A model generated the notes under the pieces. The model searched no databases and was not told the DNA's origin. It worked only from the letters and a program-made list of their open reading frames with translations. From Rhea pennata (taxonomy: Eukaryota > Chordata > Aves > Rheiformes > Rheidae), in contig NC_084669.1 of NCBI RefSeq assembly GCF_028389875.1, forward strand, positions 32,774,731-32,838,730: 64,000 nucleotides of DNA, written 5' to 3'. Shown here one piece after another: positions 1 to 60,294 of this stretch (position 1 is the stretch's first letter; each line of letters begins with the position of its first letter). The position numbers and the translations under genes are program-made.

Positions 1-1515
1 ATAATTATCTAAGTATCCCATTTCTTCTGTTCTAGGTCTGTTTTTCAGGGACTATAAAACTCAAAGGATGCAGAATTTCATTCTACATGGCAAAACTGTA
101 TATCCACCTACCTCTACCAGCCTATCAATGTTTATAACCCATGCTTCAAACAAATGAAACACAGATAATCAGATTGTACCTCCTCTGTGCCCTTCCAGAA
201 AATATCTGAATGTACTGGCCAGCTTGAATGAAGCCTGCTTGACAGAAAAAGAGAAAGCTCTCAGATAAAAATTGTACGACTAGAATTTTTGAAAGGCAGT
301 GGCTAGGTAGAGGCAAGGCCAGAATTAATGCTCCACTGACACTGCAGACAAGCAGATGAATTTGGTCACTGTATGCTGTTTGCTGGCATCTAGCTCACCT
401 CACGGCTACCTGTAGCTCCCAAAGTCTCGCCAGCTGTCAGAGGTCAGACAGAGGCTGGGAACAAAGGATAGACATGTCAGAAAATCAAGTGTCATTATTT
501 CCCCAGTTCATGTTTCTTTCAAGTCTTCCAGCTCCAGTATTGTCTACACACTCTGAGTAGCTCACTATTGCCACAGCAACTCTTAAGAGTTGAACTACTT
601 TCTTTTCCTAGCTGTAAAGTAACTATGACCAGAGATGATCATAGGAAGGAACAGAAATTATTTAAACTTGGCAAATTCACATAATCCCAAATATTCAACA
701 ACTCCTCACTGTCAAATAGCTTCCAAATTGTGGGGATTAACACTGAGTTACTGTCAAGTTGCAGCACCTATGGCAACCTATTCTTAAAAAGGAATCCCTT
801 AAAATCCAAGAAGCAAAACCAAGAACTGAAACAGTATGTCCTAGGTCTTGTTTACCAAATGCAGTCAAGACTAGTATGGTCACAGTGTTGAACCAACTGG
901 TCAAGACTAGGAGTCCTTATACATGCTGACTGCAATGGCAAGATAAAATTCCACAGCAGCCCAGTGTCTTCCCTCACTAATAGGGGAGGTTACATCAGGA
1001 AACTATCACAGATCACTAGTCATATTTCCAAACACATCAAGCTTCCTAATAATAGATTCCATTTCCATTGCAAAGTGTGCTATATATTGCCCAATCATTA
1101 ACATTAAATTCTATCTGTGTTTTTTCAGACGGGTTAAGTAACATCAGTTTCATATTTAAAGTACTGAGACTGTAAAGTTGGTAAGAAGTGAGAAATATTA
1201 AAAGATATTCATCTGAATGCATATTATGTACAGTGAACCACTGCCATTTAAGATGTGTAACACACATGGCAGTACTTTCATATGCACACAGTGAACACTG
1301 ATTTCAGCTGCCATACAGCATATACCACTGGCACAAATCCACACCAGATATTCAGGATACCAGTTTGAAACTGGAGATATACATATAAATTAAATGCCCT
1401 ACTTAAGATATTTTTCCACATACATGGAGTAAGCAATTCAGGAAAAAAAAAACAAAACAAAACAAAAAAACCCCACACAATAGTTACCCTTGGTTGGCAA
1501 ACGGAGGAAAAAAAT
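1..1515. other. Intergenic flank downstream of SLC16A9
   Basis: No open frame here has coding character or paired splice sites. The sequence is AT-rich and unique-looking, and I recognise no repeat family. It lies beyond the best candidate polyadenylation signal of SLC16A9. Confidence 0.5.
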
Positions 1516-23058: not shown

Positions 23059-23064
23059 TTTATT
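23059..23064 (-). promoter_or_regulatory. Candidate poly(A) signal of the unrecognised gene
   Basis: Minus-strand AATAAA about 205 bases beyond the stop codon at 23269-23271. A short AT-rich 3' UTR ending here would make the 23.4-kb segment a terminal exon. A chance hexamer in AT-rich DNA is also possible. Confidence 0.35.
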
Positions 23065-23268
23065 CTCCAAACCATTGAAGGAGCTATTTGGGTTCATTAA
23101 ATAATGACGTTTTTATGTATTAGGACATTAAAAGAAAAAATCACAGTAAATTAAAGCTATTTTACAAACCAAATACAGTTCAACTAAAATACAATACTGC
23201 ACACGAAATGACAAATAAGTGCTGACAGCATGAACCACATTTGCTAAGAGTGTAGAATGAAAATAGAA

Positions 23269-23416
23269 TTATAGTGCTGCATCTCCAAGCAAAGAAATAT
23301 ATCGGTTCTGTTTTGCCGGAGAATTCACTCTCAACGAAGATACAGTACCTTCTTTATGATGGTAGTATTGGTCTCTCAGGGCTTCTAGGTTTGCCACAAA
23401 TTCACCACGATCAATC
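23269..23416 (-). CDS. Candidate terminal exon of an unrecognised gene
   Basis: After a pyrimidine-rich acceptor (TTTTGTTCTGTACTAG before 23416), one frame is open for 48 codons to TAA. The translation looks strongly protein-like: IDRGEFVANLEALRDQYYHH, then KEGTVSSLRVNSPAKQNRYI and SLLGDAAL. The first part would form a charged helix. The other two frames close within 14 codons of the acceptor. A weaker possibility is an internal exon ending at GAAG|GTACTG. I do not recognise the family. The acceptor itself lies inside a 108-bp tandem duplication. Confidence 0.42.
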
Positions 23417-23624
23417 CTAGTACAGAACAAAAGTGCTATTTTATTGAGACATAGATTTTCTGTGGCCCCTCGCAGAACTAGAAACCAGTTAAGACAATAT
23501 AGGTTATATTAGGATAGATCAATCCTAGTACAGAACAAAAGTGCTATTTTATTGAGACATAGATTTTCTGTGGCCCCTCGCAGAACTAGAAACCAGTTAA
23601 GACAATATATGTTGTATGAGGATA
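23409..23624. repeat. Direct tandem duplication, two 108-bp copies
   Basis: Copy 1 is 23409-23516 and copy 2 is 23517-23624. They are nearly identical except for a few substitutions in the last 25 bases, so the event is recent. The unit contains the acceptor of the candidate terminal exon. The duplicated acceptor in copy 2 is a possible decoy 3' splice site. Confidence 0.95.
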
Positions 23625-23637
23625 GCTCAAAATGCAC

Positions 23638-23722
23638 TTATTGTTTAGGGAAAAGATTCCATTTTCTTTACAGCTTGGAATAGGATTCCTTCCAGAAGAA
23701 AGGCGAAGATCAGAGCTATCTC
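23638..23722 (-). CDS. Candidate exon of the unrecognised gene
   Basis: The acceptor TTTCCTCCTATAG precedes 23722. One frame reads DSSDLRLSSGRNPIPSCKEN followed by GIFSLNN. Its phase (two bases, then a full codon) fits the donor phase of the candidate exon at 25272-25448. The proposed donor AATAA|GTGCAT is weak, but it would leave two bases, exactly what the 23.4-kb exon requires. A second frame is also open here, so the frame is uncertain. Family unknown. Confidence 0.28.
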
Positions 23723-23872
23723 CTATAGGAGGAAATTTCATACAAGTATGGTTACGTTAGAGAATGAAATGCCAGTGAAAATACTGGTATATTAAAAAAA
23801 TTACAATGCATAAATAGAATAGACAATCAATTCACTTTCACAGAAAATTATTTTAATAAGAAAATGAAATAC

Positions 23873-23922
23873 TCCTGCTTTAAATGGCTCATCTCTTTTT
23901 GAGGAAATGGGATCATCCACTG
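23873..23922 (-). CDS. Possible small exon of the unrecognised gene
   Basis: A strong acceptor (ACTTTTAATTTCAG) precedes 23922, and one frame reads VDDPISSKRDEPFKAG before a weak donor GGA|GTATTT. Its 5' phase would fit the exon at 25272-25448. Its 3' phase does not fit the next candidate at 23722, so it could be an alternative exon or a chance match. Confidence 0.18.
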
Positions 23923-25271
23923 CTGAAATTAAAAGTGTGGTTAACAGAAAACACTTAGTATTGCTGAAAAACAGTGCAAAATACAACAAAGTGCCATAAT
24001 GTCCCCTTTAGTCCCATGCTACAAACACTTTACTCTAACCAGAAATGTGGCAGGTTTGATGAGGTTGCAAAAACGCATTAAGGAAGGTACTTTAAGGAAA
24101 TAACCACCCATTTGTTATATAAACCGCTCTCCATCACGTGCCTGTCAAGCACACAACATAGAGAAGACTGTCACCAACCACATCATGTGCCTGCTAAGGT
24201 CCCGGTCAGGCTTGCACTGTACAACATCGCGTCAGTTGGGCACTCCAGAAATCTTCAGTGCTACTCTGGTCTGTGTCAAAACAGGTTAAGTAGATGACTT
24301 CCCCTCCTGAGGAAAAAGATGACAATCTCAGCACATCAAAAAGCACGTATTTTTGTTGAGGAAGTCACAAGGTACAGCATGAATACTGGCGATGGTCTCT
24401 CACAAACAGTGCTTATTTATTCCCTCCTGAAAATTCATTTATTTCTGGCCAGTACAGAACACCGAAGTTTAATGGTACACACTTATCAGGGCCGGGAGCA
24501 CATACTGAATTCCCACAACTTTCCGTACAGGCATACACTTTTCATCTTCCTAGAGTATTAAGTTCACTTAACAGCAGTTAAGAGTTAGCTTTTCCTGCAC
24601 TTATTTAAGCACATTGTAATACTGAGGAAAGGCATTTATCTTATGTCAATGAAAGGGACAGGCTAACAGCAGCAGTATGAAGCAGCACCCCAAGTTTATC
24701 TTCAGTGCAATCTCATGGATTTCAGTGCAAATGTTGTCAATTTTTTTCTGTATAATGTAGTTCTGACAGTTAAGAGCTAGCCTTGTTTTCAGTACTAGCC
24801 TTTGCCTCATCTTGGGTCTCCACAGGCTAAGACTAATATTCCAAGTTTTGTAGCATTTTTGCGGGTATGTTTAGCCATCCAATCTGTTATACAGCACATT
24901 CTAAAGTAGTTCAAAATTCATTTCAAAAAGTTTGCAGAGAAGTGTTCAAAAAGGCCTATATATTTTAACTTTGTACTGCCAAGACAAATTCAGCTAGTGG
25001 AGAAACAAAAAGAAAGATTGCACAATGGAAGAAGTTTATTTTAAGTCTATGTTAAGCTGCTAGTAGGGCTTGTCTAAATACAGATTTGTCCATTGTACAC
25101 ACTCTTAGTCTGCATTTAATGCAGAGAGGCATAGAGATGATGAGGAACGGCTAGCAGGCTTTCCATTCAAACCCAGGCCCATGGTAGCTCTCACACATAA
25201 CTATTTCCCTAAGAAATAGCTTGTAAATGACTTTTGCATCCAAAGAGGAATGTTAACTAAGACAAGCTTAC

Positions 25272-25448
25272 CCCTCCCTGTGGGCATTATGGCTTTGTCA
25301 CCTAAGTTCTGGGAATCTCTGTAAATGCTCTCAAGGTCTAGAGCAAGCTCATCGATGGGCTGTAACCCTGAGATCCAGCTCTTCAATTCACCATGGCTTG
25401 CAAAGGATGGGAACCTGCTGCTGCGCAGATGTGTCTCTTGAGCTTCTG
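25272..25448 (-). CDS. Candidate exon of the unrecognised gene (58 codons)
   Basis: One frame is open for 58 codons up to a good donor (GGGAGGG|GTAAGC). It reads EAQETHLRSSRFPSFASHGE, then LKSWISGLQPIDELALDLES and IYRDSQNLGDKAIMPTGR. Composition is soluble, acidic and helix-prone, unlike random AT-rich translation. The 5' boundary is uncertain: CCACAG before 25448 keeps the whole frame, while CATCCTTTGCAAG a little downstream has a better pyrimidine tract and would shorten the exon. The 3' phase (one base left) fits the candidate exon at 23722. Confidence 0.42.
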
Positions 25449-25928
25449 CTGTGGCTCACGTGTTGTGAGGCAGGAAATGGCCTGTGTTGGGCATGTGTGG
25501 ATCATTGTTCTGCTGCTCAGAAACCTTGGCATCCGTACCAGGGCTTCCTGCTCGCTCCAGACCTCCAACTGCTAACACTTGCTCTATTTCTGGATCATTA
25601 ATCCTTGCATTCTGCAGTATAAATACTGAGCTATCCCGAAACTATATCTCCAGCACCAGTTACTTAGTCACATCTGCAAGGAGCCTGGACAATTTACAAT
25701 CAATAAATTAGCTGAAAATATACTTGCTCTGACAACTACAATGTAAACGTCTCCAGTACATTCTACTGCTGTAATCTGATACTCTTTCCAAGTTTACGCA
25801 ACTCATTCCACAGGGACTGTGAAGAGAATTGGAAACCACTCTTTGCTTACTTGATCATAGCTGATTATTTAATTCATGAAATAGCTTCCTTACCAAAAAA
25901 GTGCAAATGTGAAAAAGCATGCCTTTAC

Positions 25929-25982
25929 CTAAACAACCTTGGGACTCCTTTGTTCTCGTTCTTTCTCTTGTTCTCGCTCTTT
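25929..25982 (-). CDS. Possible small charged exon of the unrecognised gene
   Basis: Bounded by an acceptor (TTTATGTATAG) and a good donor (TTTAG|GTAAAG). In one frame it reads KEREQEKEREQRSPKVV, coiled-coil-like, but that frame meets TAG at the very donor edge. The other two frames are open. Phase cannot be fixed between the flanking candidates, so the case is weak. Confidence 0.18.
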   Translation of the reverse strand, partial: KEREQEKEREQRSPKVV

Positions 25983-26991
25983 CTATACATAAACATATAA
26001 TTGAATCTATGTTAAACTTAGTTTGGCTTTTGAGCTTTGTCACTTAGAGTATATGCAAGGATTGCCAGATAAAAGAATTGAGACTAATTTCCACGTTACA
26101 TTTCAGCAGGTTAGTCACCCAAGATCTGCAAGTGCTGTGTTCTTGTGCTGCCCAGAGAAACTGTGCAGTGTCAGCACTTGGGATGGTTCCAAATCTCAGT
26201 GTGATATCCAATATCTGAACCTAGGAGCTTTTATCTCTGAAGGTACAACATCTACCACATAAATTATGTAACAGGACATATCTTCAAAACATTTACAGTC
26301 TAACTGGAGGTGAAGTACCTCAACTTGTCCAGTCATCATTAGAGTAAATAACAATGACTAGCAAAAATTGGAAAACAAAATGGTTGTTAGAATGTAACAT
26401 CCTTGTAACATCCCATCCCTGTCCTAAAAACACGCTTAGGAAGTTTCTTTGTTTCAGCGTCTAAACAATGCAACAAACAGCTGACAATCCGTCAGTGCAT
26501 TTCAGTCTAGGCTGTGTCAGAGCAGAAGCTTTCCACCTTGAAATTAAAATTCAAGGAGAGAGAAGCTGAAACATGACTTGCTGAACCCAGTCCCATCAGA
26601 TACATAAGTAGAGCTCCAAGTGGCGATGTTCAGACACTGTCACTGGAGAACATACAAGTGAAGTACACTCTAGCAGGCATAATGTTCACATAAAATCTAA
26701 ATCCATTTGGAGGGACTCTGGCCAGAGATTTCTTTTATCCTCTTTACCCATTACAATAGCTGTTAAAACCTGAAAGGTTTTGGCCTGAAGAGATCTGGAG
26801 CAACGCCTCTACCTTGAATCCACAAGATTTTGGAAAGTACTTTTTTCTCCACAGTGAACCTATGAAACTGTCAGCAGGAAACTATAATACATCCTTAATG
26901 AAGGCAGCACTCATTCAAATATGCATCAGAAGCACAGCCATCACCTTGAACTGTGGGGCCGCACAAAACAGACCCGTGACTAAGACACAGG

Positions 26992-27021
26992 ACTGAGCCC
27001 TAAACTGAGCCCTAAACTGAG
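26992..27021. repeat. 12-bp direct repeat (ACTGAGCCCTAA, 2.5 copies)
   Basis: Perfect head-to-tail copies of a 12-base unit; no associated gene. Confidence 0.85.
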
Positions 27022-27818
27022 AGTGATGTAACTTAGGCAGATGTAGATTGATCAGGGCATTTAAAGACCTAAAGCACAGAAGGTTATGTCCGCCCTGACT
27101 CTTCATCCCTTTCAGAAGATGGGACTGCTGTAGTCATAGCTGGTGAACACACACCTTGCTGTGATCTGTCATTATTTTTCTTCAATCTTGTGAGTAATGT
27201 GTCAAATTAAAAATTGTATTTTTCAAATATTTGAATAATACTTACTGAGGACTGTCAATGTTTGTTGAGATTACTAAAAAGTTAAAGTTCTTTACACTAT
27301 TAATTTAACTAAACAGAAATAGTATCTCGTAATAGATGAGTATATACAGAAACAGGGATAGAGAGGACATTATAAACACGTATTACACCTAACATGTTTG
27401 TTTATCATGGTCCCCAGAGAACAATTATACAGAACCAGTTGAAGTATATACCAATAAACTAAAACAACTTCCATTTCAAAGAGCCAATAGTTGTTATCGA
27501 TGCCCAGTAAAATAAAATAATTGCCTCATCTGTCTGATATTGTTTAACTACTATTGTCTAATGGTACCACTGTATAAGAAGTTTGAACTCAAGCCACCTA
27601 CTTTTGTTGGTACATCATCCTCCAGTGGGAGTAAGCCTTAATTACCATTTGGTCTGTGACATACTGAGCAGCCAGAAAAAACATTATCAAGATAACATGA
27701 AATCAAAATCAAGATATACCATGTCAAGCAGTTGTTTTGAAAAAGTACTGGGTAGACAAAGCTGAGCCTGGAGTGAAGTCTTTGGATTCTTCTCTCTACT
27801 GTTAGGGATGAGTCTCAC

Positions 27819-27881
27819 CACAGAGTAAGGCGATTGCCCCTCTGATTCATGTGGCTTGCTTTTAGGCAATAAGAGCAGTTC
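27819..27881 (-). CDS. Candidate exon of the unrecognised gene (21 codons)
   Basis: The acceptor GTGCCTCTGTTAAG precedes 27881 and the donor CTGTG|GTGAGA follows 27819. The 63-nt segment is exactly in phase 0. It reads ELLLLPKSKPHESEGQSPYS plus V. The upstream candidate exon also ends in phase 0 (AAG|), so the two join as a Leu/Glu helix followed by a polar linker. An alternative donor AACA|GTAGAG would extend it by eight codons. Family not recognised. Confidence 0.36.
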
Positions 27882-28490
27882 CTTAACAGAGGCACAACAT
27901 CTGCGAGGATATTAAAAGGAGCTGAGAGTTAAAACAAAAAGAAAGAAGTGTTAACCTGACACAAAAAAGCCATCCCTATCTGGAAATACTTATTTCCACA
28001 TTTTTGGAAATATTTGAGACACTGGGGAAAGTTTAAGTATCTCTACATATGCTTGGAATTTATTTTTCACACATAAAGCATTCCTGTGCAGTTACTATGT
28101 GTGTGAACCAGCACACGCATTTCCTCCTCTTTGATTTTTCTGGTGTTTGTTCCCCTTTCCCACCCCGGAGAGTCATTGCAAGAAGTCTCTATGCTTATAA
28201 TCCTCTCAACAGATTGACTGGCAAGGCCTCCAGGATTTCATACATAACTAGACAGCATCTTAAATACAGGGCACGGGTTTTCACAGAAAACACCATTGCT
28301 TCACATTGCCAAAACATCACTCAGGAACATAATCTCAGAGCAGATTTACCCCAGCTAAAATGCTTAAAATGAAATAGGTAAAAAGATTTTAAGTTTGAAT
28401 AGCTCAATAGCGAATTGAAGTTGCACATGAAAAAATATTTTTTTTTCCTTAAAAAGACGTTTCCTGCTTCAGGGTAGCCTGACAAACCAC

Positions 28491-28558
28491 CTTAAGTTTC
28501 TCCAGTTCTGAAATGGAAAACATCCTTAACAGCTTCCGGTAACAGTATCTTTGAAGTC
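28491..28558 (-). CDS. Candidate exon of the unrecognised gene (22 codons)
   Basis: After ACTGCAG the frame reads LQRYCYRKLLRMFSISELEK then LK, up to donor TTAAG|GTGGTT. The phase joins the preceding candidate exon through a split glycine codon. The basic amphipathic start (LQRxxxRKLLR) resembles an IQ-like calmodulin-binding helix, but the resemblance is loose. A longer form using the stronger acceptor upstream (CTCTGTTTCCAAAG) would be out of phase with that partner. Confidence 0.36.
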
Positions 28559-28814
28559 CTGCAGTAATTATGTAACTGCTTTGGAAACAGAGGAGGAGCA
28601 GCTAGGAAGCCTGCCTCTGAACTGAGCCCTCCACTTGGGAAGGGGAAAAAACGAACAGAAAAAAAACTTTTACTGAGTTGCTCTTTGCTGAGACCATTCC
28701 CCCAACCCAGCCTTCGTTGTTGCAAGTGTCAAGCTTTTATCATTTGACTTTTTGGGACTGGTCGTGGAGGAAGAAAGCGAAGCTTGAGCATCATGTGGGC
28801 AACTCTAATATTAC

Positions 28815-28904
28815 CTGGACACAAATACTGAGAAAACATTGCTGTGACTTCTTCTGTCCCTGTGGGAGTAACAGTGCTGTGCCTTCCACTGAACTCTGCG
28901 AGGT
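28815..28904 (-). CDS. Candidate exon of the unrecognised gene (29 codons)
   Basis: Has the best splice sites of the set: acceptor AACTTTTCTTCCAAGCTTCAG before 28904 and donor TGTCCAG|GTAATA after 28815. The 90-nt segment reads LAEFSGRHSTVTPTGTEEVT then AMFSQYLCP, in a frame that enters with two bases and leaves with one. No upstream partner exon was identified, so the 5' end of the gene is unknown. Confidence 0.42.
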
Positions 28905-28929: not shown

Positions 28930-31900
28930 TTAGAAATCACTGTAATTAGCTTGGCAGCTAATTTAGAAGCCCACTGATCTGTTTAGAATTTGCAGCCAAA
29001 CTCAATTCTAATTTCTGCTAACATAAAACCGAAATAACCTCACTATAGTTATTTTGCCCCCACAGTATCTAGGGAAGTGTGAATTTCAGCCCTGAACAAA
29101 TCCTAGTATTCTGGAGAATGATCAAAGGTTCTCTATGCTTCCTGAATTATAACTTAAAATATTCCTTGCATTAATACCTTTAAGGAAGAACAGGTGACAA
29201 TTCATAAATGCAAAAGGCAGTGCCTTGCAGGAAGCATACCATTACAAACTCTTCTTTCTAGAATAGTTTTAAAATGGGGAAGAAATAACTCAAAAGCAAG
29301 TGAGAATATGAAAGCTGTTCTGTCAGACTGTACGGCATGCCATGTTAAGCTTGACAGCTTCAATGTAATCTGAAAATTAGAAGACATTTGTATTAATAAA
29401 GAAAAAAACCCACAATTAAAATATAGTTCTGCAGGGAAAGGAAAGCTGCCCCAGCAATCAAAGGAGATTGCTAAAGTGCAGTATCAGCCAAAGAATAATA
29501 CTTGCAAGAGAAGCAAGTAGGAGATCATAAAAAGAAAGCAGAAAGCAAATAAATCTGGTAGTATATTAACCAAAGAAGAGCAACATAGGTGAGATTCAAA
29601 TACATTTGCATTATACCACAAAAAGAAAACATTAATTATTAGGCTACAATTTTTGGCTTCCTGTGCCGAAGTAGTTTATACTTAGAACATGAATTTTGTA
29701 GTCTGAAAGACAGAATAGTATCTCAGTCATGATCAGTTCTAACGGTGTCTAGTTTATTCTACATTTAATGGCTTGATCTAGTAAATCTTAAGGTCATTTT
29801 GAATGTGTATTATTAGTAGTACGATGCATCCTGAATTCAATGAAGCAAATATTAGGTCTCTTTGGGAAAAAATCAAGTTTGCTTTTACAGATTTCTTCTA
29901 AGAGGTAACCTGGGAAAATCACCTTATCTTTAATAGAAAACTGAAACTGAGAAAAATTTTCAAAATAAGAATATTCAGAGTATTTCAAAACAATAAATAG
30001 TTCTGCACAGACCCAGTGAAATGAAAGTACTTGAAAAAACAAGCTCTTTAACTCTAGTAAGAGTTAAACAAGAGACCAAAATCTGGTCCTTTTCTTGTCA
30101 GAAAACAAGCTGCATTTCCCCCTTGCTAGCTGATAAAACAACACAAAAAGGACTGTATTCTGCACCCATTGCGCCCTGTTCTCTCCAACACTCCTCTGGC
30201 ACATCCAGCTCTCTTCATGTATTGCTCATAATGATTTGTGGCATTACTCAAATGGGATAAAAGAAGCTTTTAAATAATAAAAAAGAGACACCAACTCTTT
30301 CTTCCTTGCCTGGCAGTCCTGCTCTGCAAGTAGCAGTCAATGTTGAAAGTCAAAAGTTCAGAGGGTAAAAATCCTCCAGGGGCTCTTGTTCTCAGCAAAC
30401 ATGGGAGATAGCATTAGCAGAAGCAGATTTCCTTCATTTCCTTCTTTCCACTTTCCTTCTCCACGTCTCTCCTCTCCCTGCCCTTTGTCTACAAAGATAC
30501 GAACAAGCCAGAACCAGCTTAACTCTGAAATGAGAGCAGAGCCTATTGCAAGTCCTCACCACACTGGTCTGCGGCTTGCACACTGGCAGTGCTAAAACTG
30601 TGCTACTATTCAATCCACAACAGGGGCTTTTTCTTGATCTTTCTGTGATAGATCGGGCAGTTGGGTAGAGCCAGGATAGGTGGTAAAGCTGGCAGGGCAT
30701 TAATGGTATTTCTAACCACTTTTGCACACACACAGAGATTTCCCTAGTAACATGTCACTCTCTTTAGAAACAAAATAAACCTGCAAGCTCCAGACAGGCT
30801 TAGCAGGGTTATTGCTGTTAAGTACAGACCTTGTTTTCCCAGGAATCTAGGTGAGATTTGGGCTGAATTTACAATTAACAGGAACTGCAAAGGGCAATCA
30901 TTTCACTTAACTGGGCTTCAAAAACTTATGATAAAAATAAAAGCCACAGAATTTTACTGTGCAATCTTGACTCACAAAATTGTCCTTTTAATATGTTGTC
31001 ACTTAAATCAGGAAAAACTGCTGGAACAGGGGCACAGCACTCCCACAGCACTTCTGGAAAGCTATTGGGGTCTTTCAGCTAAAATCATAGCCTCAGCTCT
31101 TAATTCAGAAATGAGTTTCAGACACAGAGCCAACATATACACTTAAAAGAGGAGACTTCAGTCTACAGAGAAATTTATAAAAGGAACCTCACTACTTTTC
31201 ACAATATGAAACAGTTAACTTGAAAACTCTTAATTATCTTCAGGAACTAACAGCATTAAAATGGTTCTTATTTAGACACTCAAGACAATAGCCATACTAA
31301 TCCTAAGGTTCCCTAATAGTTTGAGGAATGCAGTAAGTTTTTGCAGGTTTAATTCCTTAATATGTTGTCATGGCCAACACTTGTTTTGGAAATGAAACTC
31401 AAGAAAATAATTTAAATAAAATTGTTACAACAATTACGCTTCACTAAATTACCTGCTACAAAACCTCTGTGCAAGCCAAGTGAATAATGATTTTAAAAAC
31501 AAGTAGGAATATGTCCTGACAAGTAAGTGCAACACAAAAATATATTATGTTTAAAAATCTTAACCATTTTAACCACCTATTCAAAACAAATCGTTTCTAG
31601 CTACAGTTTCTGTGACAGCTGATGTCACAGAATGCTGCTGCTATGTAACATTGGAAATGTATGTTCACGCACACTTAGAGACTTCGATTTCTCTATGGCC
31701 ATGGCTGTGTTAAGTTTTTTATACTTACACTGGAGCCTGGAAAATTGATAGAATAGTCTAAGAAGCAGATATAGATCTGCAAGACAGAACAGTACAGAAT
31801 TAAACCCCCGAAATCACTGCCTATCTTTTCTTCCCCCATTTGCTCAAGTGTATATTAAGACATAAATTATAACCTATTTCAAGTAAAGGGTGCTTTATTG

Positions 31901-34900
31901 CCAAAGGTCATTTGTAGTCTCTAACACTCTTCAGACATGATGGCTTAGCTCTCGTATTCCCACTTCCAAGAGCTTTCAGTCCCTTGTGGCAACCAGCCAT
32001 CCCAGCAATTCCCACCTGACTCCTTTCCTAGCAAGTACTTCTGCACTGCTCATCTGGCACTGTCCTCGACTCTCCCGTCTGCTCCTCACTTTTCAGTAAG
32101 CAGGCATCTCCGAAGCTTCTCCAGCTCTTAATTCTCCGACCTAACAGAAGTTTGCTTCGATCCTTTCTGGTGCCAACGTTGCTGTGTAAGAGAAACAAAC
32201 CCTTTTACTGTTATTCAGTTTAGGATTATTCACAGCCAGTGGAGACTAGTTTCCTGAGTCGTAGGTAGCTCTGCCTTTTGGCAGAGGGGGGAGGGCTAGC
32301 CAAAAGATGTTTGAATACCTTTCCTATGTTCCTTGTCCCTTTATTAGCCTCAAATGCCACTCTACCCTCTTAACCAGGTCCATCTACGCTCCTTGCTGCT
32401 TATCACAGCGGGATTCTAGCAACTGTTCTAGCAACTTCCTTTGGCTGCCTATTAGTATCACACATCTGCATTTAGCTATAGGAACCGGTCCAGTGCCATT
32501 TTCAGATACCAGGTGCTTTCTTTGGCCATCATGACCTATTCTAGTTTGTCCTTAGATTTTTAAGATCTTCAAGGCAAGACTGCTGTGCCAGAGCACTGTG
32601 CAGCACAGGACTTCCAGCCCATGGGAAGGGCTTCTAAGCTTGCCTTCTCCCTGCAAATTACTGCTCTTTCAGGTTCTGAAGAGACAAAAAGCTGCAGGAC
32701 AACCAGAGGGGTTGGGGCCTCTGTCCCTTAGAGTAACCAACCTGGCAGGCTTACAGCACACTTGTTCGCAGAGCCAAAAGCTGTGCTTCCTGCACGCTCC
32801 CGTTTGCTCCCAATTGCACACACTTTGCTGCAAGGGCCTTGAAAAGTCATCTTGCAACAGTCTGCCAAAGCCCTGTACAGCTCTGGATCCTCACCCACGA
32901 GAGGGAACTTTTCAAGTCATAAAAGGTCTTGAGGACCTGGTCTACCCTAGGTTACTAAGCGTGGCACATGTTAACTGCAGGCAAGTAGACAGAAATGGAA
33001 ATAACACCTACAGAGCAAAAATGAAAAAGTTAGTTGTAACTTCCTGATCCTTTTCATATTGCAGTGACTGCACAAGTTTAACTTACAAGTGATCCAAATC
33101 AATTTGCCTTAGTTAGCGTCCTTCATCCATAAAACACCAAGTCTGCATACTCCCAAAGACATGAAGTTAGGTACCAGTCTTAGCTGGACTGGAAAATTAT
33201 ATTACTAACCTTACTTCCCCCCCCCCCCCACAAAAAAAAAAAAAGTAAGCAAAACTAGACAGTATATATTGAAAAGCCATAGAAAAATCAGGAACGTCTT
33301 TTGAAAGCATTAGAAAAGACTGCTCAAAGCATATTTTGAACTCCTATTCCCATCACCAAATAAGAGGTCAGAGTACTCATTGTCTTCCTTTTATTTTTGC
33401 TGCTGACAAAGAGAGTGTAGAGATTCACTATAGAGTTATGGCCTATTTCATTCAGCAGTAAGTGTCAAAATACACTCAGATTTGGACCTGCAAATGAACT
33501 TCCATTTTTTTTATTCTCTGTTATACAAAATGAAACTCTTGCCCCGCACTGTTCAGAGGAAACAGACAGTTTGTGAGAGAAGGTATCACCACTGGCTAGC
33601 ATGAGGAGCCTTTTCTCAATTCAGGAGTAGGGAAGAACCATAGCTGATTTTCAGGAAGTGCCCTGAGGCTTAAAGACAAGGTTCCCATCTCACTCTCCTC
33701 CATTACTTCTCTTCAGTGTTTTCTATTTCAAGTGAATTAACTTTCTTTATATGTATTTTCAGTCCCCATCTGGAAAACGTGGGACTAACTTCAACCTCTT
33801 CTTGTTCCTGGGCTGAAAGATGTTTTGTCCATCTCTTCTTCTATCTTGAAAGGTAGGAATGGCCTCAAGAGTACATGAAATAGACTGATATCCATGGGGG
33901 CACCTTACATATAGGATGCATTAGACTTGCTAAGTTTGCTTACTGTGCGATGCATCTTTCTCCTGCAGTAGTTTACCAGCATTTTTAGGTGAACTCCTGC
34001 AATGCTGAAAACTTGCCTTTCTACATAAGGTACAAGCACCAGGTGAAACTAAGAAGAATCATGTAAAAAGCAGATCACCTGGACAAAGCAACCTGATACT
34101 AAACTGCTCACATGCATCTCCCTTTCCTTTTCAGGCAGTCTTCTGAAAGCATTCAAATGACTCTTTTCTGTTCAGGCAAATGTCAGAGAGAAAACATAAA
34201 TGACAGATGTATGAAGACAAACAGCATCAACACAGCTCATTCACCTGGTTAACAGTCCCACTGGTTGTGTCAATGTCAGGCAGAGTACTTGCAGAGAGAC
34301 AGACAGAACCACTGATTGCTCAGCATTTGCAGCAATGAAGGGATGAAAAAAAGACACATGGAGAAATACCGCATGTGTTTTAGGACCAGAGAGTAACATG
34401 GATTGGCTAGATTAGAGCATCACCGAAGAAGTCCTATGGCTTGGTGCCCAAGAACCTGCAGTCATGCTCGATATCGTAGTGTCAGCGAGAAAGTACAAAG
34501 GCAAGTTGCAACTGTTTTTTCCACAGGCTAGAATACAGAAGGTACGGAGCAGGCTGATGCCGAGTCGAGCAGTGTACACAGTGGCAGAGATATACCTGAG
34601 GGGAGGCAAACAACGAAACAGAGACAAATGCATTCAACCAATGAGCTGAGCAAGACTCAGACATGGACTGAGCTTTCCGTTTTAAGCCAGAAATTTGACA
34701 ACGCAGTCAGATACAGCAAATAATATTTACAAATCTATGCAGTACACTATGCACTTCTGTACTGCATTGATAAAGGAATGCATAAAATAAAATCATGTCA
34801 AAAAACAGATTTCACAAAGAATGGGCCAAAGCGTCCACAAGATTTTCACAAATGCATACTATCATCCTTAGATGTCTAAAGCTTACAGGTAGATACACAA

Positions 34901-35990
34901 CACTTATTCATAGTGTGCTAGTACTGCTTTTCTCCTCTGTATTAGCTAGCTTTGAATAGAAACACAATACCCTCATATCATAACAGGATTCACTGCAATT
35001 AAAGAGAGACATAAATTCAAATGGACTAATACAACGATTTAATAAGGAAAAGAACACACAACAGTAGAAATCTTACTGGATTCCTAAGACAAATCTGTAT
35101 CAGGAAAGGACTGAATCTGTCAATGGAAGAACTGCTCAACTACAATTACACCGATTAGAAGAAAATTAAGACAGGCTGAAATAACTCACTAGATAACAGA
35201 ATTTTTACTGCTACATACAGATAGCAAAAGCATTCTGTTCTGAACCATCAAATATATACCAAACTGCTGTATATAGATAGGAAAACATTTTTTTCCTTTT
35301 CTTCCTCTCATATTTAATATCAGACTAAACAAGTAGCTGTACTGTTTACCACTTTAGACTCAAAACTTGTATGACAGAACTTCCTATAACATTAACATTG
35401 CACATACACGTAGAAGTGTTGAACTAAGAAAAACAGGAAAAAAGACCAATTTTTTTTTCTTCCCTCTCCCCCTCCCAAACATCAGAAGGCACTCTCGAAG
35501 TAAGCAGACCAACTAAGACCAAAAGATACTGCAGTTCTTGCTGAGGCAAACAAACAAACAAAACAGTTTCTCACATTGGAAGGTATCTGGAGAAGGTTAA
35601 ACACAGATTTTTAACTCAGAGGGAGAAAGATAGCCAGGAATTTTCCATAAACAGTAGCTCAAGGGACAGCTACGTTCTTCCAAAATGGAAGCAAAGGTGC
35701 AGGAGCAGAGCAGCCATAATTATACCCTGAATATCCACCTAATCCAATGCAAGGATCATCTCATGTATAAACTTTATTAGGGAAAGAAGGTAATTCCCAA
35801 ATTCTTACTCAGCAGTTTAACTGAAGATACCACAAGAATTGAAGACAGCAAAATTTAAGACAAGAATGTATTTTTCTCTCACCCCCATTTCCCATTTTCT
35901 TCTTGTTTTTCCAGTGATGACAGGCTGGTAGATAGAAAGGAAATACACAATCCACCCCATATTCTTGCAATACAAGTTAAAAAAAAAAAA
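28930..35990. other. Intergenic interval between the candidate gene and CCDC6
   Basis: Mostly AT-rich unique sequence. About 31.9-33.0 kb is somewhat richer in GC and holds a 149-codon plus-strand open frame (32598-33047) that I do not accept as a gene. Exon-like snippets (for instance near 29.9 and 30.6 kb) lack paired splice sites. The 5' exons of the candidate gene could lie here unseen. Confidence 0.4.
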
Positions 35991-35999
35991 AAAAAAAAC

Positions 36000-38900
36000 A
36001 AAAAAAAAAACTATTTATTGGAAGGCTGCATGAAGGCACAAATGAGCTTGATTACAGATATATTGCAACAATTACAAATATACACAAACACCTTGAGAGA
36101 GATAACAAAGCAATAACACAGCTAATACAGGAATAAAATGTAACCTGCTAAAAAACTTCTCAGATACTGAGTTCTTTCAGTAATTAACTCTAATCCACAC
36201 CATCATAGTGTAATGCTTTTTAAGTCATTACTTGCATTCATGCTCAACAAATCTGCACTTCGACTACTGTTTTTAGCCAGTGGATTTATAAATTTGATCA
36301 AAATTTGAACAGACTTTGTTCAATAGAATCAGGAAAATACGGGAATAATCAACTAGATACTCAGCCAACCTCAAATGTGGTTTCACAGGTTTCCTAAGAC
36401 CACAAGTGAAATCACCAAGGAACAGAAATTAAATCTAAGTTTCAAAAAGCTTGTGGATTTTTGTTCCATTTTTACTTGCATTTGAGGAAATTGCTGTATT
36501 CCTGCAGGAAAGGAACAGTCTACATCTCTCAGGGGATATCCTTCTTCCTCCAAAGGAGGCTTAGATTTCATTTGAAACGCCTGCTAAAACAAAAGTTAGC
36601 AATCACAAACTAAAGTGTCTTGCACAGCTCAGTTGTTACTACTAGCATAGAACATCTTAGTTTATAGATACAGCATTAATTTATATAGTTTTCTACTATA
36701 GTATAGCTGGTTTTTCTCACTATTTCAAATATTTCTGTGGAAAGGGGAATTGTTCTTTTGTTATTAAATGCCAGTGCCAGGGATCTAAGTAAAAATTACA
36801 ACATAGTATTTTCTCAAAGGAAACCACAAAAAAGAATTGTGTAGTTTTAGTACAGGTAACTCCTAGGCCCAACTAGAGTATTCTAAGCAGTAATTTACTA
36901 CACAGAGACAGTTTTCTCCAACTCAACCCTCAATCACATGTCTTAATGGCCCCAACTCCTTCTCACCATAGGAAGGTATTTACGTTGTGGTCCAGTTCCA
37001 GTGAGGACAGGATGCGCAGAACAAAACCTAGCATAGCTATACCATTTCTCCTGACACCATGTCCATGTAATTCCAATATAAAGATGAGGTAGCACCTTCC
37101 TTTAGAGCCCAACTAGTAGAACAAAACCAAGGATTACTCTCCCTAATACAATAGCTGCCTCTTAACTCAGTGTCAAACCTCCAGATTTTTGTCTCTTCTT
37201 CAGGGCATACTACTAATGCAGGAACAACTGAGTAAAAACAGAAAACATCACATCACTACACACTCTCACTTGAGTTACAGCTGCAATGCAGAGGCCACAA
37301 TCCAGCATTTTCAGTGACTTCCTTTGGTCCGCTAAGCAGTAATGAACCTCTATTTGTAACAGGACAAGTGGCTATTACCCAACAGGAACACGAGGGATAT
37401 CCTGAGTATTTATTACAATGAGACATCGAAATAAAAAAAATGAAAGATTAGGAACTTCAGTCCAAATCTTAAAAGGGCTAGAAGAGTTACTCAGCTCCTC
37501 AGGGAACAGACAGAACTTGCTCATTTGGTAACTGAGGGCTTTGTTTTCTCTCTTCTTTCCAAGAGGACAACTCTTCCCCTTAGGGAGGTTTTTGTAACAA
37601 AAGTCTGTATTGTAATTTTATAGCTTACACTCATGAATGTTCTGGTTTCGTATGAGATGGCTTGAACATGGGAGAGATGCTCTGCATAGTCCATACTCTG
37701 TAGACTCTAAGAATCAAAAAGAAATAGACTACCATGACTGAAACAGAAAGGAAACATCAAAGAGTGCTGAACAGTGTTACAACTCAAATTCCTTACAAGA
37801 CTAAGCGTTAGAATAGAAAAAGCACTACAGGACTTAAACAAGGTCCTTGGATGAATCCTCTTAATAAGCAATAATTTATATTGAAGGAGAGATTGCATTC
37901 TTTGGTTGACAAAGTATTCAAGGTTCTTTCATTTGTCTTGGTGACCATTTTCTATTTATTTAACAAAATACACGGAGTCTAAACTTTTTGCCAACAGTGC
38001 AACTCACAGACTCCAGGAAGTTTTGTCATTTTCTTTGCTTCCAGGCCTCTATTTTTCATTCAGCTGAAGTCCACAGGAATTTCCACAGGCAGATGGATTC
38101 CTGAACAAGAAACATTTGAACAGGAAAGGGAATCCTCTTCTATCAGTAAAACAAGACTGCTAAAAGAAAAGTACTGCTACTTTCTTGAAAAACTCTAATA
38201 GTCATTTCTGCCCTTGGGAATATGCTCTCAGAGGAGAAGTAATTAAAACAATCTTATCTAACTGTTAGCTGGAAGACTACCTCCAAACAGTCCCACCTCT
38301 TCTTCCAAGTGCACTTCATCTCACAGCTACCAACAGATGAAACCAAGAACTTCTGTGGAACAACTTGTGGATAAGATAAACTCATAATTCTCTACAGAGT
38401 ATCAGCTGCATTCCAACATCCAAGCCAGATTCCTTGAGGGAAAAAGAAAAGAAAAAAAAAAGCTGCTTGACTGTCAGAGAGAAAAGTGCTGCTGAAACAG
38501 CTAGGAAGTTTTTTTGTTCATTTGTTTTACACCTTTAACCGTACACAAATAGTACACACAAACAAAATGCTCATTACTACTAAAAATTGCCTTATTGTAG
38601 CCTTAATTGTAGTCTTATGCAATCAGTGATGACGCAGTGTGTAAGTGATAGGCATTAGTAATGAGGAGAACAGCAGAAACCCACCCAGACAGAACAAAGA
38701 AACCAAGTACTTAAAGCATTTACGATAAGCTGTACCTCATTGTCAAGTGAATTCCTCCAGTCTCATGAGATTCTGATAAAAACATAGCTGCAGAATCATA
38801 ATTCACGACTATAATTCACAAGCAAAAATGAAAATCCATTTATATTTATTAGGAGATGGTTGTGCACAATTCCTTATCTTATTCAAAATGTCTACAAATA

Positions 38901-41528: not shown

Positions 41529-42943
41529 CTGCAGAACAAATATTGAAATTAAGTTTAAACACACTCCTGAACAACTTTAAGTGCAAGTTCTCTGATCAAC
41601 GTACTACTGAGCTTGGCAAAGGAAAAAGAAAAAAAAAATCAAAGTGAACAATTACGTGGGAAAAAAAAATCCATTTCAAAATGTTACAAGGATCATAATA
41701 CTTTTTTTTTTTAATTTTATTTTAAGTAAATTATGCTACTCTGAAACGGAGCAAAGGAAAGCGGAAGATACTTTTACCTATGATAACCAACAACCTAAGA
41801 AAAAAAATGAGAGTCTGTAGAGATAGCGTGCCATTTGTCCTTGCCCAAGCAGTAGGTGCCAATGAACTTTCAACTTTACACTGCTGGCATGTAAAGTCAA
41901 AGTACGTTGTACCCAAATGTAGGTGGGAATGTTTCAGCTTTAAAGAATTTGCCCAGAGTCTTTAGCACTCACGCTCAGACTGCATACTGAAGCAACACCA
42001 AAGCATAATTCAAGTTGTTCTTCAGAGTATCACATGAAAAAAACATCATAACCTTTTTAGCTGCAAGAGTGAAACAGCAGGCAGAAAGCTCCCCTCAGCA
42101 GAAATTGCATTTTTTTTTAATATAACCTGGATGCTAAAACACACAAAGATTTAATACTCACAGTATTTATCTTCACAAAACAGTGGGAGAAAAACTTCCT
42201 TTAAAGTTAGGAAAGTAAAAATATAAATTACACTGCAGAACACTAACTTCTGCTGTTTTGAAACCAAGGAGATGCACAAAGATCTAACCCAGCAGGCATT
42301 AATTAAGAACTAATTAATTAAGAACACACCCAAAATTAATAACCAAATGAAGACAATCAGTTCTGGAGAAATGTGACTACAGCGCTACACCAAACAGACT
42401 ACATGCAAAGTCAATTTATTCTGCAATGGATACTATAAATGAAGAGTCAAGAAACAAATTACAGTTTGGTCAAATAATATATTTTGTATCTATTTTTTCA
42501 ATGTAACTATATATAATAGTTTATTTTAATGCTCTCTGGGAAAAGCTAAGGGATCCTCAACAACTGATTGATTGATATTTCTGAAACATTTCCATTTCTG
42601 AAACACTTAAAAACATTTACTGCATTAGCAGACTTCTAATAATACAAAAGGGCCTGGCTTCAGTATGGAGACAAAGACAAAAGCCACTTATCAACACCTT
42701 TTTTGAAACAGTTATTATTTTGTCCTGGAGGTCATCTTTCTCACAGTGACTCAATGTGACCCCAATTAGTTTACAATTTCAGAATCAGTAATATCTCACA
42801 GGGAGCAAAATAACCAGGTTCCATGAAAAACTGATTTATAAAAATCAGTTTTTCGTTTTTTCAGAAGCTCAAAGATCTTCCTGTGACCAACCCATGCAAC
42901 ATACAGCAAGAGGCTGGACCAGAGTCCTGGACCAGCTCCTGCT

Positions 42944-43176
42944 CAGCTCCAGCCTGTTGCTCGAGCCACTGCTGTATTGCTCCTATCTCTATTTTGTCAA
43001 TGAAAATAACAGTTTACCTTAGCAAGCTCACCTAACATAATTCAGAAGTACCTATATTTTCAGCTCCAGCCTGTTGCTTGAGCCACTACTGTATTGCTCC
43101 TATCTCTATTTTGTCAATGAAACTAACAGTTTACCTTTGCAAGCTCACCTACATAATTCAGAAGTACCTATATTTT
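42944..43176. repeat. Direct tandem duplication, two ~117-bp copies, in CCDC6 intron 8
   Basis: Copy 1 is 42944-43060 and copy 2 is 43061-43176 (one base shorter). The copies differ at only a handful of sites, so the duplication is fairly recent. Neither copy contains coding sequence. Confidence 0.95.
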
Positions 43177-53827: not shown

Positions 53828-55140
53828 CTCAAAATAGGAAAAAGAAAATTTGTTGTCCAGGGACACCTCTAAGGGGATTTTCTTAAATGTTCAGATGTTG
53901 ATAGTGGCAAACATTTCTGCCTATAGTTTGGAAAAATAAACCACTTTGGACTATATACAGGTACTTCAGTTTTACATTAAAAACCCTACTTCCACAAGAT
54001 TGTTTCTAATCAAGTTTGTTTAATTTCTTTGGAACGTTTTATTTATGTTCTAAGATGAAGACAACATATCTAAGATAAAAAATGAAAAACAGTACTCCCA
54101 ATGATGCAGAAGTTTTTGTGCACTGCTGGTCAATATTCATTGGATTGGTGAAAGAAAACTTTATTGACAGTTTCTGAAGCAGATATTCACTTTATTATCT
54201 GCAAAGAGAAAAATACTTCTCATCATGCTCTTCTCCTCACATAGTCAAATACCTTCCTGTGAAGTCAGGAGTAACAAACTTTTCATATAAAGAAATAAGC
54301 ATACTGCAGATACTGATGTTCTAAATTAAGATTCTTGGAGTTTACATAAGTACTTTTCCATCTGAAAACAGGAAACAGTTCATTAGAAATACGTTGATAG
54401 GTCACATCCAACTCTGCCCTGAAGAGCAGATACAGCACTATGCAAGCATAACTCTTTGCATGGTCTAGGATATACACAAGCCATACAAAGTCATATTAAA
54501 ACATGGTCTATGACTCAATTGTACCTCCTGGTAAGAAGGCACACAGTCTGGGATAGATTAAACCAGAAATAGTTTGGTTTAAAAAAGTTTTAAAGACCAA
54601 GATGCATAAAAAATCCTACCAAAGGCCTATCCACTATGTGGCTTTACCACTGTTGTATATTACATGAAGCTCTTCAGAGCACCTTCCACTCAGCAGGGCT
54701 CCGCAAAACAAAACTACAAAAATTGCAGTTCATGTAGTCTCAGGTGTTTGCCAAGGCACAGATTGGGATTCATGGAGTCGTATTAACATAACTCTCCTAA
54801 CAATGTATAGTAGGAAGTAAGGCATTCATCATTGCTTCTCCTCTACTCCCCACAAAAAACAGAGTTCTTACAATATGCTCCCCTCCAGAGGCTCCCTTTA
54901 ATATGTATTTTTAGCTTTTCCAGGAACATAAAGCCTCATTATCTTTACTTCTATTGAAGAAGCAGCAGGAAGCCTCAATGACACAAGAGTACATCATAGA
55001 GAAAAAGCTAAAGTCTTCTTCAAGGAGAGAGGGAAGCAACAAGAGCTTCCCATATAATCGATACACTAAAATGTCATATTATTTTCTTTGGCCAACAAAG
55101 CTGACCCAAGAACAGAAGTTTTAAAAGTCTACCAGCAATC

Positions 55141-58148: not shown

Positions 58149-59815
58149 TTACTTCAAATGCAGCTACAATATCCACTGTCTGTGTATTCCTGGATTACTG
58201 CTTCTTCAGCCTTCTTGCCAACTTACTTACAAACACAATTGTTTCCCTCTGAAATGACGGTGATCTTCCTAATCAATGAAAGTTGAAAACAATCTCTGAC
58301 TAAGCCCACAACCCTCTTGGCTCCTCTTTGACCCTTCCCCCTTTATTTCTTCGCTTCTATCCAAGAATATTTTTCTGGAAATTTTACACATTTTATGATC
58401 CTTTTCTCCTTTCAAATAAGCAGATATAGGAGAGGATTATTAGCATCTAAGTTGTTATTTCTCTTTTCTTTTAAATGCACCTCTTCTAGTTACCCACTGT
58501 ACTGTATGAAATAAAAAAGCAACTGAAAAGGGTAACAGAAAGACCACACAGACTCGGCCTCTGTAGGGCAGAACTGACAGCTATTTTATTTCCTATCAAA
58601 TCACTGAACTGTAATGCACAAGACCACTGCTGTTCATTTTAACTAAAACATTCAGCTAATGAAACAGTCACATGTTGTGAAATTCTTCACCATTAGCCTT
58701 CAGAGAAAACGTTCTGTTGCTTCAGGCTGACTTTAGAAAATTAAAACGGGTCACAATTGAAACCTAAGACCCAACTTCATTTTTGAAATTAAGAGCAACA
58801 CTCTACAGAAGCATCATTGCTATAAAACAACTATCTTCTGGTCAACTCTGGCATAAGCAGCTCAGATAAGAGGAAGCTAACGAGAAAAGAATCAAAGCAT
58901 AGGTAATTTGCATTCCACATTTAAAGAAATAGTCATTTAGCGATCAGTGTTGTAGCTATCTGACCACTGGTGACAGCAATAGATCTAGAAGATATAAAGC
59001 TGCAAGTAATGCAGTCCTATGAGATTACGTTCAAAATATGAGGCATTGCTGAAGTACTCGTTACAAGCCCTGTAAATAACAGGTATCCCAAAGACTATGT
59101 TGAAAAGCTGTGGCACTCACTCTTCCTTAATTCCTAGTAAGTACAAACACAACATTGTGCTGCTGCAACTTTTGGTAGCTTCTTGCTAAGTACCAGATGT
59201 GCCCCAAAGGCAGCTGTTTCACGTTGCAGTTAATGCAGTAAGCCTTTGTATGAATTTGTACAAGTGATGAAAGGGAGAGAAAAATGCATGCAAGTGGTAT
59301 ACATGCATGCTGAAGTTCAAAGTAACTTGAGATTTATTACACCTTACTGTAAGAGAAAACAAAGGTATATGATGTATAGCATTTAAATATACAATAAACT
59401 TCAAAATAAGACTGAGAGCCACTTTAACACCTTAACAATATTTAAAGGTCAGATATTTAAGTGAAAGACTTGACAAAAAAGAAAACATAAGCAATTCAGT
59501 TTTGAGTTTATATGCTTTCTGAACAATCTATTTTTGATATTGGAATAGAGTTGAATAAAGTAATAAGCTCCAAATTTAATGATTCCACAACTCTGCCCAA
59601 AATAATGGTATCAAAATAAATACCAAGAGAATTTCAGTTGTGGCTCATACTAATATTTCAAAGAATAAAACAATACAGTATGTAAGCTTAATTTGTATTC
59701 ATTTCAATTTTGATTAAATGGCCACCATCACCACCTTGTGGCTAAGAAAGTTATTTCAATTTTATATCAATTTCAACACTGGTTAAAGATTTGCTGGCAG
59801 CTAGATCTTTCCGCA

Positions 59816-60294
59816 GTACAAGAGAGACATGGAGCTACTGGAGAGAGTCCAGTGTAGGGCTACAAGGATGATCAGAGGGCTGGAGCACCTGCCCTGTGAG
59901 GAACGGCTGCGAGAGCTGGGCCTCTTCAGCCTGGGGAAGAGAAGACTGAGGGGGATCTTATCAATGTGGATAAGTACCTGAAGGGAGGGTGTCAGGGGGA
60001 CGGGGACAAACTCTTTTCAGTTGTCCCATGTGACAGGACAAGAGGCAATGGGCAGGAAGTGAAGCACAGGCAGTTCCACCTGAACGTGAGGGGGAATTTC
60101 TTCACTGTGCGAGTGACAGTGACAGAGCACTGGGACAGGTTGCCCAGAGAGATTGTGGAGTCTCCTTCTCTGGAGATCTTCAAGGCCTGCCTTGGATGCA
60201 ACCCTGTCTAACATGCTCTAGGTGACCCTGCTGAGTAGGGAGGTTGGACTAGATGATCTCCAGAGGTCCCTTCCAACCTTACTGATTCTGATTC
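59816..60294 (+). mobile_element. 5'-truncated CR1 LINE (3' end), antisense in CCDC6 intron 3
   Basis: The sequence follows the well-known CR1 3' end: a GGAGAGAGTCCAG-type start, the GAGGAACGGCTGCGAGAGCTGG segment, and the GGTTGGACTAGATGATCTC block. It ends in short tandem copies related to the CR1 terminal octamer (ATTCTG/ATTC). About 480 bases survive. They hold only the C-terminal end of ORF2, open at 59966-60211 but far too short to be active. The element is the clearest sign that the host is a bird. Orientation is opposite to CCDC6. Confidence 0.92.

Follow-up and report, generated by a model that had tools for sequence, protein, structure and literature searches.

A probable protein-coding exon with an in-frame stop codon between SLC16A9 and CCDC6 in Rhea pennata

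The question raised by this locus is whether the DNA between SLC16A9 and CCDC6 in Rhea pennata carries a further gene. A sequence-only reading of a 64-kb window (the whole stretch of DNA that was analysed, from a genome of 1.27 Gb) had marked a series of short minus-strand segments between these two neighbours as a possible multi-exon gene, and had named a gene retained in birds and lost in mammals, a decayed gene and a lncRNA with chance frames as explanations. Exon translations back both neighbours and put SLC16A9 at about 3.8-15.6 kb and CCDC6 from 41.3 kb upward, both on the minus strand. A GC-rich island is found at 19-21 kb, and the interval analysed was 21-41 kb. A literature search on the SLC16A9-CCDC6 interval, judged by titles, found no paper about it and none for SLC16A9, CCDC6 and chicken together, and a word search of the main text of PMC10416458 and PMC4290089 found neither gene name.

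The minus strand carries all six proposed segments, with AG before each, GT after the first five, and the assigned frame open in every one (Table 1, where the fourth segment, D, 25272-25448, appears as part of a longer exon). Their phases were also as described: A joins B through a split Gly codon, B joins C in phase 0, D joins E, and E joins F, which ends in TAA. The AATAAA expected 205 bases past this stop is present at 23064-23059, but it is weak evidence, since about one AATAAA per kb occurs on the minus strand at 21-24 kb.

The splice sites had been called plausible, and most of them are. Among the minus-strand GTs of 21-41 kb, the donors of A, B and C and the one at 25272 rank between the 95.7th and the 99.6th percentile; among the AGs, the acceptors of A, B, C, E and F rank between the 89.5th and the 98th. 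Two sites were poor: the acceptor at 25448, where D was thought to start (−2.5 bits, 65.5th percentile of AGs), and the exon E donor at 23638 (−4.3 bits, 62nd percentile of GTs), which scored below all nine scored CCDC6 and SLC16A9 donors (−0.8 to 5.0 bits). The E donor falls outside the range of the scored known exons; every other splice site of the chain A-B-C-GD-E-F, four donors and six acceptors, falls within it. Exon C could alternatively start at a stronger acceptor, at 27900, in a different phase. Neither a start codon nor a 5' exon nor a promoter was established for the chain.

Table 1. Coordinates of the candidate exons and related features (window positions).
Feature	Position	Strand	Remarks
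Candidate exon A	28815-28904	-	good splice sites; without coding signal; requires an upstream exon ending in phase 1
Candidate exon B	28491-28558	-	fair splice sites; without coding signal
Candidate exon C	27819-27881	-	phase 0 to 0; donor 4.3 bits; claimed frame best of six, by a small margin
Core exon GD	25272-25611	-	340 nt; enters in phase 0 and leaves in phase 1; one in-frame TGA; segment D is its 3' part
G, 5' part of core exon	25460-25611	-	absent from the sequence-only reading; possible exon of its own, donor GTGAGCC 4.1 bits, phase 2 out
Possible frame-keeping mini-intron	25397-25459	-	63 nt; donor of 4.1 bits; acceptor at 25396 scores 0.2 bits; would remove the TGA
Candidate exon E	23638-23722	-	claimed frame best of six; acceptor 2.4 bits, donor only −4.3 bits
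Candidate last exon F	23269-23416	-	TAA at end; claimed frame best of six; acceptor 2.6 bits
AATAAA	23059-23064	-	possible poly(A) signal, weak

That segment D is an exon of its own was not confirmed. Besides having a weak acceptor, its frame continues upstream to an acceptor at 25611, which gives a 340-nt exon, GD, with one TGA at 25456-25458. This TGA stands between D and the upstream part, G, which shares its reading frame. In an internal-exon scan of the minus strand of 21-41 kb, G ranked first with 22.3 bits, against 14.8 for the runner-up. Its frame score was 8.9 (scored as 25459-25611), and the other five frames were all negative. The whole exon is bounded by a donor of 5.3 bits (99.6th percentile) and an acceptor of 1.1 bits (89.5th percentile). 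Since the entry of GD and the exit of 27819-27881 are both in phase 0, this exon, with the in-frame TGA inside it, fills the link between 27819 and 25448 that had been left open. Joined as A-B-C-GD-E-F, the chain has agreeing phases and runs for 263 codons, the TGA among them, up to the final stop.

The rarity of such a signal was estimated in 180 kb of random DNA from the same genome (18 of 20 fetched loci; the two with GC of at least 0.46 were left out). With thresholds taken from GD itself, as also in the neighbour test below, and with a human codon table as the basis of the codon model, a GD-like signal was defined as a 340-nt stretch with at most one stop, a frame score of at least 11.2 and a margin over the other five frames of at least 12.6. 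One locus in the random DNA reached this strength (L003, a long stop-free, exon-like ORF), and within the window (1-19 and 21-64 kb) it was reached only here, at 25281-25620. The random DNA also contained 663 ORFs of at least 62 amino acids, 50 of them with an open same-frame upstream neighbour of at least 51 amino acids; for none of the 663 was the neighbour as coding-like as G, a segment that had not been picked beforehand.

GC over exon GD is 0.51, compared with 0.38 and 0.37 in the flanks, and in 60-base steps a smaller rise is also seen outside it, at about 25110-25229. Within GD, the coding signal is mostly held by G. Segment D alone is weak, two reverse frames outscoring its claimed frame. 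As a prediction from these statistics, a minus-strand coding exon at 25272-25611 is well supported, and a lncRNA with chance frames becomes less likely for this segment, an explanation with which the lack of coding signal in A and B agrees. The interval holds a 340-nt exon with coding statistics and in-phase joins to segments on both sides; this is not yet a gene, and it is worth checking.

Tests on the whole chain were less clear. The claimed frame was the best of three, and also of six, in C, GD, E and F and not in A and B, that is, best of three in 4 of 6 candidate segments. The corresponding figures are 10 of 11 for known exons and 739 of 2479 for random open segments matched to the five shorter segment lengths; by the stricter best-of-six criterion, 5 of the 11 known exons passed. 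The result for the candidate segments is weak because they had been chosen as protein-like. Signal above chance is present in exon GD, weakly in C, E and F and, by the frame test, not in A and B. In a second scan, part of GD was the only piece of the chain among the 14 best frame-specific segments of 21-41 kb.

When chains were scored against the local background and block shuffles, the best minus-strand chains of 21-31 and 23-33 kb lay 2.75 to 3.0 standard deviations above the shuffles, and the plus strand lay below them. For 23-33 kb, the values were 3.0 on the minus strand and −0.9 and −1.3 on the plus strand (two runs); for 29-39 and 31-41 kb, they were 2.1 and 0.4 to 1.1. A value of 3.0 is not rare, since 10 of 40 random strands reached 3.01 in the first shuffle run and 3 of 40 reached 2.99 in the second; some of these strands will contain real genes. 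Five minus-strand control windows from SLC16A9 and CCDC6 gave 0.7 to 4.5 in the second run. The contrast between strands proves little by itself, since the plus strand of four of the five known-gene control windows reached 2.7 to 3.2 in the first run. The top-scoring chains differ from the proposed one, and these tests are only suggestive. Raw chain scoring with one fixed background separated nothing, since random DNA came out higher on either strand, with 25 to 32 of 40 random strands outscoring the candidate minus-strand windows, and it was discarded.

Chance was weighed against this evidence. If the DNA were noncoding or made a lncRNA, and a reader had selected open segments ended by AG and GT, the absence of coding signal in A and B, the two poor splice sites, the weak chain-level tests and the lack of a credible relative in Pfam and PDB would all be accounted for; the 340-nt exon signal and its in-frame extension G, which lay outside the original choice, would not, and we consider this reading somewhat unlikely.

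A coding locus at this place, counting damaged and intact forms together, appears reasonably likely from the exon statistics and phases. The minus strand between SLC16A9 and CCDC6 would then contain the 3' part of a multi-exon protein-coding gene, functional now or until recently. We infer a transcript spliced A-B-C-GD-E-F and polyadenylated near 23.05 kb, whose product would be the polar tail of a protein, about 260 residues long and without a recognised domain. In this copy of the genome, the TGA in GD would truncate the protein and make the mRNA a target of nonsense-mediated decay, and the gene is probably damaged in this bird.

The fate of the TGA was considered in three models. In the first (M1), GD is one exon and the frame of the six-exon chain is interrupted by a premature stop that lies about 185 nt upstream of the next junction, so that nonsense-mediated decay would be expected. 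In the second (M2), G is spliced straight to F (A-B-C-G-F), in phase and with sites within the known-exon range. In the third (M3), the 63-nt mini-intron is removed in frame and the poor exon E donor is retained. Under the predicted splicing of M2 and M3, no internal stops are left. The position of the TGA inside the strong donor GTGAGCC (98.7th percentile) favours M2 or M3; M1 is favoured by the even GC across G and D and by D remaining open in frame. We lean towards M1, without much force. Taken together, the in-frame TGA and the poor donor of exon E point to a gene damaged recently, so that, of the explanations named at the outset, decay is favoured over an intact retained gene, with the same lack of force.

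The candidate resembles unitary pseudogenes, which are single-copy genes that were lost to an early stop: it has one genome match, mostly open frames, a premature TGA and a weak donor. The single-copy sign comes from E-F and GD, each with one match in the own genome (1.27 Gb; DNA search skipping very common words), and the TGA, though present, may be spliced out. It differs in that its loss is one that we infer.

Less likely is that splicing avoids the TGA, by the mini-intron or by the G-F join, and that the gene works; we regard this sub-case of the coding reading as rather unlikely. It would fit the donor around the TGA, the agreement in phase of G and F (G leaves and F enters in phase 2) and the stop-free frames of both models. 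The mini-intron is doubtful because its GC matches the high GC of the exon; it also leaves the poor exon E donor in use, and vertebrate introns of only 63 nt would be exceptionally short. The G-F join, for its part, throws away open, phase-matched sequence in D and E.

The coding signal could also end at the TGA, with G as the true last coding exon and D, E and F as 3' untranslated or chance sequence. Most of the coding signal does lie in G, and D alone does not stand out, but the raised GC extends through D, and the in-phase frame of D-E-F runs for 135 codons without a stop until the TAA. We consider this form of a coding locus improbable.

Regarding relatives, the sequence-only reading could assign no family, and this stands. 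Pfam (E up to 10, with HMMER filters dropping most matches above about 0.1) gave no credible relative, none at all for the full chain, and listed no IQ and no transposon domain; PDB gave no match to the full chain. The IQ-like basic patch that had been noted was located in A and B, which are without coding signal, and found no backing in Pfam either. In Pfam, matches below the cut-off were DUF6331 to D-E-F (E 0.2) and a mussel myticin profile to an upstream segment (E 0.39). In PDB, Lem22 (E 0.49) came from a join without G, and ribosomal S25 (E 0.023 and 0.66) from a join of unproven exons. All of these were rejected. In IMG/VR, no pattern match to G-D-E-F was found, and in GTDB none of 33 pattern matches was confirmed; absence from viral and prokaryotic collections is as expected. 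That GD is a fragment of an old transposable element is highly improbable: two of the strongest random hits in the frame-segment scan (L021) do resemble CR1 reverse transcriptase, but GD and E-F each match once in the genome in a DNA search that skips very common words, and Pfam lists no transposon domain.

In mammals, the gene between SLC16A9 and CCDC6, on the same strand as the candidate, is MRLN (myoregulin, or LINC00948). MRLN encodes a 46-amino-acid membrane micropeptide in one exon. The two share interval and strand; they differ in that the candidate is a polar, multi-exon ORF. A tblastn search with human and mouse peptides, in which a diverged peptide could be missed, found no convincing myoregulin peptide in the window; the best match in 21-41 kb had E 1.1, and the best in the window had E 0.16 at 55107-55139, inside CCDC6. 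It is conceivable, though clearly unlikely, that the locus is an intact, undescribed sauropsid protein gene without a known domain, sited where mammals have MRLN, and that MRLN arose in its remains. In a parallel case, Xist arose from Lnx3.

If the frame is conserved in other birds, domain-based annotation would have missed a gene where mammals have a micropeptide gene, and synteny could be used to trace its history. If the break is confined to some birds, a recent gene loss could be dated. If it is due to chance, the case is a useful warning on exon chains read by eye.

Further segments were seen upstream of the chain. The protein-like segments at 37629-37706, 37060-37227, 36476-36580, 35883-35924 and 33944-33996 are not claimed as exons; the claimed frame was the best of three in 3 of these 5. 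Four further segments were tried, with the same outcome in 2. The join of 33944 to 28904 is in phase and is an unproven candidate. On the minus strand, 37060-37227 and 36476-36580 have good acceptors and weak donors, with the claimed frame best of three in both, and are possible 5' exons. No other segment of the interval had a frame-specific signal as strong as the purine-rich open segment at 30385-30504 on the same strand (normalised 2.23), which has a good acceptor at 30524. This segment may be a further exon, or its signal may simply reflect the purine tract.

Two tandem duplications were observed. One, at 23409-23630, consists of two copies of 108 bp with 4 mismatches in 108; its end lies just within candidate exon F, so that the acceptor of this exon and the preceding intron are present twice. 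The other, at 42943-43176, has a 117-bp unit and lies in the last intron of CCDC6. In addition, open frames at 59811-60208 resemble a bird CR1 element.
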